Source: Chloroflexota bacterium (lineage in GTDB: Bacteria; Chloroflexota; UBA11872). From it: a DNA stretch of 64,000 bases. The position numbers and the translations under genes are program-made. The notes under the pieces were generated by a model. It saw nothing but the letters and a program-made list of their open reading frames with translations. It was not told the DNA's origin and did not search any database. Below are positions 18,378 to 26,298 of this stretch, piece by piece. Position 1 is the first letter of the stretch, and each line of letters opens with the position of its first letter. The DNA lies in NCBI GenBank assembly GCA_026707285.1, contig JAPOXD010000011.1:1-64000 (forward strand). Reading direction: 5' to 3'.

Positions 18378-20819
18378 TCACGGTGCTCCCGGCGGCGTGG
18401 CCTGGCCATGATCGTCCGCGCCCCAGCAGGCGATGGAGCCGTCAGTCCTCACTCCGCACGTGTGGAAGTCCCCTGCGCTCACCGAGGCAAAGAGACCGCC
18501 GGAGGGACTGGACTGGCCGTATTCGTTATCTCTCCAGCATTCGACGGAGCCGTCCCGCCTCAAGCCGCAGGCGTGGCGCCCCCCGACGCTGACCGAGACG
18601 AATTCCCCTGGCGGTGGCGGGACCTCACCCTCGAGAACGTCACCGCCCCAGCATTCGAGCGTACCGTCGCCTCTCACGCCACAGGCGTAGGAACTTCCGA
18701 CGCTGACCGAGACGAAGGAACCTTCCGGTGGCTTGGCGTGCCCCAAGCCCAAAGCTTGCGCGACCGGGTCAAAGCCCCAGCACTCAATGGAACCGTCCTC
18801 CCTCACGCCGCACGTATGGGCTCCACCGGCGCTCACGGAGGCGAAGTCCCAGGGCGGCGGCGTGGCCTGGCCGACATCCGGGGGATCGTCCATAAGGGCG
18901 CCTAACACAACAGACGTGTTGGAACCCCAGCATTCGACCGAGTCGTCCGTCCTTACTCCGCAGGTGTGGTGCCCTCCCGTGCTGACTGAGGCAAAGAGTC
19001 CGCCGGGGGGAGTGGACTGATCAAACTCATTGTCGCCCCAGCATTCAACCGAACCGTCGATCGTCACTCCGCACGTGTGATATCCGCCAGCGCTTACGGA
19101 GACGAACCTTCCGGACGGCGGCGTAGCCTGATTCGTAAGGTCGCCCAACAGAGACGTGTTGGAACCCCAGCACTCAACCAAGCCGTCGGTGCGCACGCCG
19201 CAGGTGTGAAATCCGCCGGCGCTTATTGAGCTGAATTCAGTGGTCGCGCCTGAGTCAACGCGGCCACCATCTGCCGACCCCGGCTGTCCGATGTCTTCCC
19301 CAGCAAAGGCCTCATCAACGATGCTCTCATCAATGCAGCCGGCCTCGATCATGTCGGCAATTGCGTCCCGGTCCATGCCATTGACGATTTCAACTATCTT
19401 CGGGAGATGCTGAACGCTCACCGGATCCAATATGCGGGCAAGGTATTCCTCCAGTCGATCCAGAGACGCACCCTCTCCGGGTCCGGGAGCATCGTCCACC
19501 ACCTTCTTGGCGGCTCTCACATAGACCAACATTGCATCGTGCCAGTCGGCAAATTCCTCCGGCGGTTGCACGAATTCGAGCTCGTCAATGAAACCTCCCA
19601 AGAATTCCGAGAACTCACGAAGGCTGCTGAACGGGTCTTCCGGTTCTTGACCAAGACGGTCACAGACCGCCAGGTAGTTGTCGGGAGACGGTCGGGACGC
19701 ATCTTGCGCCTCCGCAACCGGCATCGCCGTGGGCGTCTGCTCGGCAGGACTTCCCGCGGCGGGCGTGCTTTCCGCAGGAGTCGATTCGGTCCCGGGCGGC
19801 GTGGATTCGCCCAGGTAATTGCTGCCCCAGCAGGCGACCGAGCCGTCGGTCGTCACCCCGCACGTGTGGGACACCCCCGCGCTCACGGATGCGAACCGCC
19901 CGGCCGGGGGGTCGGCCTGGCCGAGGTAGTTCCCATCTCCATCCTCATTCAGCCCCCAGCATTCAACCGAGCCGTCAGTCTTCACGCCGCACGTGTGGAA
20001 CAAGCCGGCGCTAACGGAAGAAAACTCACCGGGCGGCGGATCGGCCTGGCCGATCACCGTTCCTCCAGATTCATTCGCCCCCCAGCATTCGACCGAGCCT
20101 TCGGTCTTCACACCACACGTGTGGAACACGCCGGCGCTGATGGAAGAGAACTCACCGGGCGGCGGCGCGGCCTGGCCGATCACCGTTCCTTCAAATTCAT
20201 TCGCCCCCCAGCATTCAACCGAGCCGTCAATCCTCACACCGCATGTGTGAGACGCGCCGGCACTGACGGGCGAGAACTCACCGGGGGGCGGGTCGGCCTG
20301 GCCGCGCCAACTGGACTCATCATCCTCGTCCAGCACCCAGCAGGCGACCGAGCCGTCGGCCTTAACGCCGCACGCGTGAAACCCTCCCGCGCTGACGGAG
20401 AGGAACACGTCGGCTGGCGGCAGCGGCTTAAATGACGCGCCTACGCATACAACGCCTCCGCTGGCCACATCCCGGCACGTGTAGTCAAAGCCCCAGCACT
20501 CGACCCATCCGTCGGCTCTCACGCCGCATGTGTGGTATTGGCCGGTGCTGACGGAGATGAATGCCTCGGGCTGCTGGGTTGACGCTGCAGCGGGAGCAGA
20601 CTCTGGCAGAGTGACTGAGGGCGTCTCCTCGGCAGACTCCACTGGCGGTGTACCGTCGGCCGGCGTTGTCTCCGTCACAGGAATTTCTGGCGAGACTTGA
20701 CCCATTTCACCGCTGGATGCACTTTCGGCGGGCGCCTCGGACCCACAGGCGACAATCATCACCAGGATGATCGGCAGCGCCAGCAGGGTTAGAAGACTGT
20801 GCCTCCTGAGCCCGATCAT
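18378..20819 (-). CDS. RCC1-like repeat lipoprotein
   Basis: A large exported protein of 813 residues. The N terminus is a lipoprotein signal peptide with a lipobox ending in VACGS (cysteine near residue 26), followed by a Glu/Pro/Ser/Thr-rich tether to about residue 85. Then come 13 repeats of about 35-50 residues, each like FSSVSAG-HTCGV-TDGSVECWG and ending in QADPPPGEF-like loops. This matches RCC1/BNR-type beta-propeller blades. Six repeats precede and seven follow a non-repeat insert (about residues 345-520) predicted to be helical. Each repeat has two cysteines. The ligand is unknown; an extracellular binding role is inferred. Downstream, DCC and this gene converge. Confidence 0.85.
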   Translation of the reverse strand: MIGLRRHSLLTLLALPIILVMIVACGSEAPAESASSGEMGQVSPEIPVTETTPADGTPPVESAEETPSVTLPESAPAAASTQQPEAFISVSTGQYHTCGVRADGWVECWGFDYTCRDVASGGVVCVGASFKPLPPADVFLSVSAGGFHACGVKADGSVACWVLDEDDESSWRGQADPPPGEFSPVSAGASHTCGVRIDGSVECWGANEFEGTVIGQAAPPPGEFSSISAGVFHTCGVKTEGSVECWGANESGGTVIGQADPPPGEFSSVSAGLFHTCGVKTDGSVECWGLNEDGDGNYLGQADPPAGRFASVSAGVSHTCGVTTDGSVACWGSNYLGESTPPGTESTPAESTPAAGSPAEQTPTAMPVAEAQDASRPSPDNYLAVCDRLGQEPEDPFSSLREFSEFLGGFIDELEFVQPPEEFADWHDAMLVYVRAAKKVVDDAPGPGEGASLDRLEEYLARILDPVSVQHLPKIVEIVNGMDRDAIADMIEAGCIDESIVDEAFAGEDIGQPGSADGGRVDSGATTEFSSISAGGFHTCGVRTDGLVECWGSNTSLLGDLTNQATPPSGRFVSVSAGGYHTCGVTIDGSVECWGDNEFDQSTPPGGLFASVSTGGHHTCGVRTDDSVECWGSNTSVVLGALMDDPPDVGQATPPPWDFASVSAGGAHTCGVREDGSIECWGFDPVAQALGLGHAKPPEGSFVSVSVGSSYACGVRGDGTLECWGGDVLEGEVPPPPGEFVSVSVGGRHACGLRRDGSVECWRDNEYGQSSPSGGLFASVSAGDFHTCGVRTDGSIACWGADDHGQATPPGAP

Positions 20820-23240: not shown

Positions 23241-23531
23241 ATGACGGATGCGATCGACCGGCTGGTATGCGCGGTGGTGCACAACGACGACGCCAACCGC
23301 GTGAATCAGGCACTGGTGGACGGGGGCTACGGCGTCACCCGCATCACGGCGCAGGGTGGCTTCCTGCGACGGGGCAACGCGGTCTTCGTGATTGGCGTGG
23401 CGCAGTCGGCGGTCGACGCAGTCATCGACGTGCTGAAACGGAGCGCGCACCAAGCGGCGGGTGCGGACGCCGGCGGCTCGGCCTACGGCATCGTGTTCGT
23501 GGTGCGGGCCGGCCAGTTCGCGAGGCTCTGA
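23241..23531 (+). CDS. PII-like cyclic-di-AMP receptor homologue (PstA/DarA type), copy 1
   Basis: A 96-residue protein of the DUF970 group, related to PstA/DarA, trimeric PII-like proteins that bind cyclic-di-AMP. Typical signals are LVCAVVHNDDANRVNQALVDGGYGVTRI near the start and the strongly conserved GGFLRRGNAVFVIGV, followed by a dimer/trimer strand VDAVIDVLK. The final strand AYGIVFVVRAGQFARL fits the family. It starts at the ATG at 23241, preceded by repeat DNA. A second copy begins two bases after its stop. No diadenylate cyclase gene is visible in the window. Binding of the nucleotide is inferred from family membership. Confidence 0.82.
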   Translation: MTDAIDRLVCAVVHNDDANRVNQALVDGGYGVTRITAQGGFLRRGNAVFVIGVAQSAVDAVIDVLKRSAHQAAGADAGGSAYGIVFVVRAGQFARL

Positions 23532-23532
23532 C

Positions 23533-23877
23533 GTGACCATGACCGCAGGCGAGAACGACCGCTTGGCCATCGCCGTGGTGCAGGACGCGGACGCGATGCG
23601 CCTATCCAACGCGCTCAATGACGCCGGATTCGCGCACACGCGGATTCCGACGCGCGGAGGATTCCTGCAGCGCGCCAGCGAGGCCATCATGGTGGCCTAT
23701 TCGCATACCCGCCACGAAACCCTGATGGAGCTGATCGCCGGCCAATGCCAGACCCGCAGCGAGATGCAGATCGTCTCGCTGGCCGGGGACACCATGCTGT
23801 TGGCCGAGCCGGTCGAGGTCGAGGTCGGCGGCGCCACGGTCTTCACGATGGAGCTCGAGCGCTTCGTCCGGCTCTGA
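23533..23877 (+). CDS. PII-like cyclic-di-AMP receptor homologue (PstA/DarA type), copy 2
   Basis: Second DUF970-type protein, 114 residues, directly after the first. It has LAIAVVQDADAMRLSNALNDAGFAHTRI and GGFLQRASEAIMVAY. The GN of the first copy (GGFLRRGNAVF) is replaced by AS, which may alter the ligand loop. The two paralogues could form a mixed trimer or respond to different ligands. The GTG at 23533 is chosen; an ATG two codons later is equally possible. The amidohydrolase gene follows after about 50 bases, with no visible functional link. Confidence 0.8.
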   Translation: MTMTAGENDRLAIAVVQDADAMRLSNALNDAGFAHTRIPTRGGFLQRASEAIMVAYSHTRHETLMELIAGQCQTRSEMQIVSLAGDTMLLAEPVEVEVGGATVFTMELERFVRL

Positions 23878-25635: not shown

Positions 25636-25660
25636 TCTAGACTTAGGCTAGCTTAGCTAA
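25636..25660. promoter_or_regulatory. candidate operator of the Phd/PIN module
   Basis: AT-rich stretch TCTAGACTTAGGCTAGCTTA followed by GCTAA, ending 15 bases before the antitoxin start. It contains the overlapping palindromes GCTAGC and TTAGCTAA. Its contrast with the GC-rich surroundings, and the habit of Phd-type antitoxins to repress their own operon, support an operator. No binding data are implied. Confidence 0.45.
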
Positions 25661-25675
25661 TGCAGGGGGATCGCC

Positions 25676-25909
25676 ATGCAAGTAAACATGCACGAGGCCA
25701 AGTCGCAACTCTCACGACTCGGCGAGCGGGCCTGGGAGGGCGAAGAGGTCGTCATCGCGAAAGCGGGCAAGCCGTATCTGCGGCTGGTGCCCTTTCGGCC
25801 ACAGAACAAGCCGCGGAGGCTTGGCGACCTCAAGGGCCAGATTTGGATCGCTCCCGACTTCGACGAGACGCCCGAGGAAGTCATCAAGGCCTTCGAAGGC
25901 GACTTGTGA
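25676..25909 (+). CDS. Phd/YefM-family antitoxin
   Basis: A 77-residue antitoxin. The N-terminal DNA-binding part reads MQVNMHEAKSQLSRLGERAWEGEEVVIAKAGKPYLRLVPF, which I split here as MQVNMHEAKSQLSRL and GEEVVIAKAGKPYLRLV: the classical Phd/YefM fold. The C-terminal acidic tail (DFDETPEEVIKAFEGDL) would wrap the toxin. GGGGGA lies before the ATG at 25676. Its TGA overlaps the GTG of the PIN toxin gene (GTGA), so the two are co-translated. Confidence 0.9.
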   Translation: MQVNMHEAKSQLSRLGERAWEGEEVVIAKAGKPYLRLVPFRPQNKPRRLGDLKGQIWIAPDFDETPEEVIKAFEGDL

Positions 25910-26298
25910 GGCGTCTGTTGATGGATACCCATGTGCTCCTGTGGGCACTTGGGGCCGAGCAAATGCTAGGGAGCGACGTACGTAGAGCCTTGACTGACCC
26001 GCGCAACGATGTATTCGTCAGCGCGGCTAGCGTCTGGGAAGTCGCTGTCAAGAGCGCGCTGGGCAAGCTGCGAGCCCCAGACTACTTGGCCGCGACGGTC
26101 GAGGCAGCCGGATTCAGCGAGCTTCCGGTGACCCTTATTCACGCCGAGCAGGCGGGGAGCTTGCCCAAGCTTCATGGCGATCCGTTCGACCGCATGCTCG
26201 TTGCCCAGACGCAGGTCGAGGGGCTCACCCTGGTCACCGCCGACGCCAACATACTCCGGTACCCCGTCCGCACGATGGCAGCGCGGGATGGCGTCTGA
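25906..26298 (+). CDS. PIN-domain toxin (VapC-like)
   Basis: A 130-residue PIN ribonuclease, the toxin of a type II pair. The first acidic residue is in MDTHVLLWAL, the second in SVWEVAVKSALGK, and the third and fourth in HGDPFDRMLVAQ and LVTADANI, the usual PIN metal-binding set. Phd-type antitoxins with PIN toxins of this HGDPFDR subfamily are common. The GTG at 25906 overlaps the antitoxin stop by four bases; a TTG at 25918 or ATG at 25921 would shorten it by a few residues. The tRNA-Thr gene follows on the other strand after 18 bases. Confidence 0.9.
   Translation: MRRLLMDTHVLLWALGAEQMLGSDVRRALTDPRNDVFVSAASVWEVAVKSALGKLRAPDYLAATVEAAGFSELPVTLIHAEQAGSLPKLHGDPFDRMLVAQTQVEGLTLVTADANILRYPVRTMAARDGV

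Follow-up and report, generated by a model that had tools for sequence, protein, structure and literature searches.

Adjacent short and long PstA/DarA-type genes form a conserved two-gene unit in Chloroflexota

PII-like trimers that act on a membrane transporter are known from the classical PII proteins (GlnB/GlnK), which act on AmtB. The closest described relatives of the two genes discussed here are the PstA/DarA proteins of Firmicutes (PF06153, DUF970). In Staphylococcus aureus PstA, Thr28 and Gly47 are located in one half-site for cyclic-di-AMP (c-di-AMP), and the GGFL motif, Asn41 and Phe99 come from the neighbouring monomer (PMC4316997, PMC4475381). The wild-type protein binds c-di-AMP with a Kd of 0.37 uM and the N41A variant with a Kd of 9.6 uM, and binding was not saturated for the T28A and GGFL-AAAA variants (PMC4316997). 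A variant lacking residues 71-87, which belong to the B'-loop, bound c-di-AMP in lysates and precipitated on purification (PMC4316997). In the PstA trimer, targets are believed to be held jointly by the long B-loops, and the ligand raises the odds that all three face forward (PMC12435418). The binding partners of PstA are still described as unknown in a recent paper (PMC12802241). The cation/proton antiporter CpaA is controlled by c-di-AMP via an RCK_C domain (PMC5575661). In addition, three PstA orthologues each have been reported for Sphaerobacter and Thermomicrobium (PMC4316997).

The window, which is the whole stretch of 64,000 nucleotides that was analysed, lies on contig 48 of a 61-contig, 3.2 Mb Chloroflexota genome that is 97% complete. 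A preliminary description of this DNA placed two adjacent PF06153 (DUF970-type) genes in it, and both were recovered. Gene A (23241..23531, + strand) is an open reading frame for a short PstA/DarA-type protein of 96 aa, assigned by PF06153, an AF2 model and Foldseek. It scores 59 bits, above the Pfam gathering cut-off of 27, and it aligns to profile positions 2-65 of 109 and is hence a partial-length copy. Gene B (23539..23877, + strand), also an open reading frame assigned by PF06153, encodes a long form of 112 aa, which scores 88.6 bits against the same cut-off and covers profile positions 2-108. The spacing of two bases given previously has to be corrected: the A stop and the B ATG are 7 nt apart, and a possible earlier, in-frame GTG start of B at 23533 would reduce this to 1 nt. 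In locus L040, the chosen B start sits at the position equivalent to 23533, where there is an ATG. The earlier description of both proteins as PstA/DarA-like stands by Pfam, but neither reaches the cut-off of 140 bits of the NCBIfam DarA equivalog NF058593 (60.3 bits for A and 87.1 bits for B).

The T'-loop motifs had been read correctly, as GGFLRRGN in A (23355..23378, + strand) and GGFLQRAS in B (23656..23679, + strand). Based on residue alignment and the roles described for S. aureus PstA (PMC4316997), A retains the equivalents of Thr28 (23337-23339, + strand), GGFL, Asn41, Gly47 and Phe99. B retains Thr28, GGFL and Phe99; its Asn41 is replaced by Ser within the motif and Gly47, just downstream, by Ala, and the Arg26 equivalent is also Ala. 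A further asymmetry, absent from the preliminary description, concerns the B'-loop. In the alignment, this loop of B comprises 23 residues between the equivalents of Arg67 and Gly94 (23758..23826, + strand), close to the roughly 25 residues of a canonical PstA/DarA loop, and is followed by the GGA motif, whereas the corresponding region of A has 8 residues and no GGA motif. Judged from its residues, A is a short form in which the c-di-AMP T'-loop motif is intact and the B'-loop, the presumed output element, is missing along with GGA. A thereby resembles the S. aureus 71-87 deletion, which is artificial, whereas A is natural and conserved (PMC4316997). In the AF2 model of A (8 alignment rows; mean pLDDT 76.6), the secondary-structure elements follow the ferredoxin-like order E-H-E-E-H-E and the B' hairpin is missing. 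In a Foldseek search of this model against PDB, the top matches were PstA structures (E 5e-7, query TM 0.60-0.69), and the GlnK-AmtB structure 2ns1 was among the matches listed. The single-sequence AF2 model of B is weak (66.9), and places strands E75-80 and E92-96 within the B'-loop with low confidence.

The pair shares with the Firmicutes proteins the fold, the T'-loop motif in A, and the B'-loop and GGA motif in B. It differs from them in consisting of two unequal tandem subunits, one loop-less and one without Asn41, and in lying away from tmk and below the DarA equivalog cut-off. Neither A nor B matched the P-II family (PF00543) of classical PII at E 0.001, and the loop roles in PstA are reversed (PMC4316997). 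Sphaerobacter and Thermomicrobium are multi-copy green non-sulfur bacteria as well, so that multi-copy PstA in Chloroflexota is already in print; the accessible portion of that report gives counts alone and mentions neither short forms nor tandems nor fusions (PMC4316997). A literature search of titles and abstract openings, which covered few subscription papers, returned nothing on the pairing of short with long PstA forms, on PstA heterotrimers or on PstA fused to antiporters; the division into short and long forms and the link to exchangers described below were likewise absent from the literature searched. The two unlike proteins of the window pair make up a conserved two-gene unit that falls within a known superfamily.

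The window genome contains four PF06153 domains, compared with the two described previously: besides A and B, there is a long copy on contig C14 (105.6 bits) and a short copy on contig C56 (64.2 bits). The thymidylate kinase-like gene tmk lies directly upstream of the C14 copy, which marks this copy as the canonical DarA of the genome and B as something else; no tmk-like ORF was found in the window. B is a fast-evolving paralogue of this tmk-linked DarA. The preliminary description suggested that a diadenylate cyclase be sought in the genome, and one is present (PF02457, 110.6 bits, contig 29). Despite this cyclase and the four PstA-type domains, a search of the genome for the c-di-AMP riboswitch RF00379 returned nothing; the same search gave matches in 2 of 14 controls. 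No exchanger was found beside the A/B pair. All exchangers of this genome are located on C14, where about 5.5 kb separate one of them from the canonical PstA copy.

PF06153 is present in all 41 genomes of the class to which the window genome belongs, and 40 of them have at least two copies. The earlier remark that most genomes have one such gene fits a statement in PMC4316997, but it does not hold for this class. The tandem order, which had been named as a point to check, is conserved in the window's family: all 19 genomes have the short gene followed by the long one, with a gap of 1-24 nt, or 160 nt in one case. Tandems are also found in families f3 (2/2) and f4 (8/9, long then short); the f4 genome without a tandem is 81% complete and has a single PF06153 copy. 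In f2 (0/5 genomes) and f5 (0/6) of the same class no tandem was found; the genomes there have short and long copies that are not linked to each other. One set of flanking genes is common to the six genomes of genus g1 and another to most genomes of genus g2, in a listing for which a simple gene caller overlooked some PstA genes. As the flanks differ between these two genera of the window's family, the pair has been kept while its surroundings changed.

Both genes are under purifying selection. In the window's genus (g1), Nei-Gojobori dN/dS is 0.105 for A, 0.082 for B, 0.092 for the canonical long copy (4 genomes) and 0.229 for the unpaired short copy, so the second copy, whose lack of conservation would have counted against the preliminary description, is kept together with the first. 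Proteins 93-96% identical to B occur in Chloroflexota assemblies. In a tree of the class, built without duplicate rows and without the truncated row C122, a branch (100/98) separates the 52 short rows used from all others, and B falls in a long-branched lineage separate from the C14 copy. This supports a single origin of the short form within the class. A single origin across the phylum was considered and not supported: the tree of the 81 columns left after removal of the B'-loop columns, with 9 changes counted, does not resolve it, and an f26 short form groups with an f26 long form. The B'-loop may have been lost more than once across the phylum.

In the phylum as a whole, PF06153 was found in 249 of 400 sampled genomes, and a short-form model gave full-length short matches in at least 10 further families, among the matches listed. 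For the class of genome G336, with a complete listing, 63 of 90 genomes match; two copies or more were counted in 43 of the genomes and an adjacent pair in 16. The 18 adjacent pairs comprise 12 tandems and 6 pairs within a single reading frame. A pooled set of 260 domains was compiled after three fragments had been dropped; it is non-random, as its loci were partly picked because a short form was present. B'-loop length is bimodal among the domains examined. The set holds 61 pairs, 60 of which consist of one long and one short domain, and these 60 span 16 families or genera (the genera f1g1 and f1g2 counted separately), that is, 14 families besides the window's. Seven ORFs encode two domains in a single frame, including the f3 fusion L057; of these, L174 is short-short and the other six are long-short. 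In L174 (1400-3148), the two PstA-like domains are C-terminal to a PF03417 (AAT, acyltransferase) domain. A total of 52 short domains are unpaired. Same-strand tmk-like ORFs were counted up to a distance of 600 nt, for domains whose locus includes 500 nt or more of upstream sequence. Such an ORF accompanies 55 of 84 unpaired long domains, from 28 of 37 families, and none of the 48 paired long, 62 paired short and 48 unpaired short domains; one f2 tmk, confirmed as Thymidylate_kin by Pfam, served as the query.

Among the ligand residues, Thr28 is retained in all 114 short and all 86 unpaired long domains and is lost in 11 of 60 paired long domains, in families f10, f41 and f83. Asn41 is lost in 14/60 paired long, 7/86 unpaired long, 13/62 paired short and 5/52 unpaired short domains. 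Counted by family, with f1g1 and f1g2 apart, Thr28 loss was observed in 3/16 paired versus 0/38 unpaired (one-sided Fisher p 0.023), and Asn41 loss in 5/16 versus 6/38 (p 0.18). The idea that ligand-residue loss is restricted to paired long copies was dropped: the Asn41 contrast was gone after a recount, and the Thr28 contrast persisted. This recount added 36 mainly low-scoring loci (L189-L224), because the unpaired long copies of the early count were mostly best-scoring matches. In f10, Thr28 is lost in 8 of 11 paired long domains and Asn41 in 9 of 11 paired short ones. In 5 of the 11 pairs, a long domain with Asn41 and without Thr28 accompanies a short domain with Thr28 and without Asn41, so that a complete site would form only at the hetero-interface, as would be expected for an obligate hetero-site. 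Counted by eye, an A-B type interface with both Thr28 and Asn41 is possible in 56 of the 60 pairs. In the other four (L119, L123, L130 and L128), no interface of any type carries both residues; they are one f10 pair (L128) and three of the four f41 pairs. In f41, Asn41 is missing from 6 of 8 paired motifs.

Family f10 also provides a link to cation/proton exchangers. G386, G265 and G066 encode a PF00999 exchanger that ends in the long PstA domain, and the short gene follows directly downstream. In L120, for example, the protein of 631 aa contains PF00999 at 16-384 and PF06153 at 526-628, and L238 and L237 are similar. In G259, the exchanger-PstA copy on C58 is broken up into two ORFs, and another copy, on C69, has an open frame. 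Exchanger genes separate from the PstA genes are located upstream of the pair in G045 and G057 of f10 and in G319 of f83. In G420 of f110, an exchanger-like ORF about 0.8 kb upstream of a fused pair, cut by the locus end and without Pfam assignment, is a candidate only. No other pair beside an exchanger was found among 256 loci, most of which have short flanks. The antiporter-PstA fusion was not upheld as a general architecture: at E 1e-60, only G066 and G259 were matched via the PstA domain in 298 genomes. G265 and G386 carry it as well, and all four genomes belong to f10. In one genome, the short PstA gene has another exchanger-like ORF behind it (L238:4176-5000 and L128:876-1400), which places the pair between two exchangers. 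CpaA and KtrA with RCK_C likewise combine a c-di-AMP receptor domain with a cation/proton antiporter or K+ transport subunit (PMC5575661), but in the f10 relatives the domain is of the PstA type and a free short PstA lies beside it. As in the GlnK-AmtB case, a PII-like trimer would act on a membrane transporter. The fusions and gene neighbours point to cation/proton exchangers as PstA partners for at least some members, and a cation/proton antiporter is the probable target in certain families of relatives.

Our tentative reading is that A and B are subunits of one c-di-AMP sensing unit encoded by a two-gene operon, in which A would keep the c-di-AMP site without an output loop, and B the output loop without Asn41. 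The sensor is probably assembled as mixed PII-like trimers, with the ligand held mainly at interfaces whose Asn41 half is that of A and the B'-loops offered to the target by B alone. As the S. aureus PstA deletion still bound c-di-AMP in lysates, the natural loop-less A is expected to bind. In a mixed trimer, a loop-less subunit would lower or reshape the output and still hold ligand; with ligand held mainly through A and loops only on B, c-di-AMP and the A:B ratio would together set the output. Such a combination of loop-less and loop-bearing subunits would represent a simple split of sensing and output in a PII-like trimer. The hetero-oligomer, raised in the preliminary description, is indirectly supported, at the level of sequence, by the single-frame fusions, the phylum-wide linkage and the complementary residue loss in f10. 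The reading as one sensing unit is further favoured by the conserved tandem, the purifying selection on both genes, the bimodal loop length, the restriction of Thr28 loss to paired long domains, the tmk contrast and the exchanger fusions of f10. Points against it are the Asn41 losses in unpaired copies, the four pairs without a complete interface, the lack of an exchanger beside the window's pair, the absence of pairs from f2 and f5, and the phylum-wide tree, which shows no single origin of the short form. The single-frame fusions also fit two stacked homotrimers.

The pair could instead form two separate homotrimers expressed from one operon without a complex, A being a loop-less binder (a buffer or blocker) and B one with weaker or altered binding. 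With Thr28 and GGFL kept in B and a complete motif in A, each could form its own trimer, and the unpaired short domains must act alone or with an unlinked partner; the fusions, the tight linkage and the f10 losses speak for joint assembly, and we regard separate homotrimers as somewhat unlikely. A shift of the pair, above all of B, to another nucleotide or metabolite would explain the changes of Asn41, Gly47 and Arg26 in B and the f41 motifs. It is considerably less probable, as A keeps Thr28, GGFL, Asn41 and Gly47 and the window genome has a diadenylate cyclase, as do 89 of the 90 genomes of the G336 class, among them its four f10 genomes (G045, G057, G066 and G336), whose sole PF06153 copies are pairs.

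It is very unlikely that A mainly poisons trimers of the canonical tmk-linked DarA on C14 as a loop-less subunit, with its linkage to B being incidental. Such a canonical copy is available in the genome, and in f2 and f5 short forms occur alongside unlinked long ones; however, the A-B linkage is kept where flanks change, and all four f10 genomes listed have pairs and no canonical copy. Decay of B as a duplicate, which its long branch and altered motif might suggest, is highly improbable and already contradicted by a dN/dS of 0.08, as low as the 0.09 of the canonical copy, and by a frame that is open in 19/19 genomes of the family. The mixed trimer can also be extended to Chloroflexota in general: the PII-like c-di-AMP sensor would then strictly require both subunits and have composite ligand sites, the short subunit always giving the Thr28 half and the long one alone bearing the output loops. 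In some lineages the long domain would be the cytosolic tail of a Na+/H+ exchanger; with the exchanger as a presumed dimer, a single free short subunit would join its two long domains to make up a PII-like trimer. This extension is speculative and, on present comparisons, unlikely in its full form.

Several further observations were made. In L219 (G426:C1:1632346-1633191), from a single-contig genome, a long PstA gene precedes three additional tandem copies of its own C-terminal half (profile 63-108). The f41 pairs (L242-L245) adjoin a gene for a CxxCxxCC-domain protein and one for a DUF4013 membrane protein, as assigned by Pfam on L242 only, with L243-L245 alike by their first residues. In the window, positions 18378-20819 (- strand) encode a putative lipoprotein of 813 aa with many repeats of the SAGxxHTCGVxxDGSVECWG type, which, judged by eye, we take to be RCC1-like. 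The small ORFs at 25660-26298 (+ strand) presumably resemble a Phd-type antitoxin and a PIN-domain toxin.
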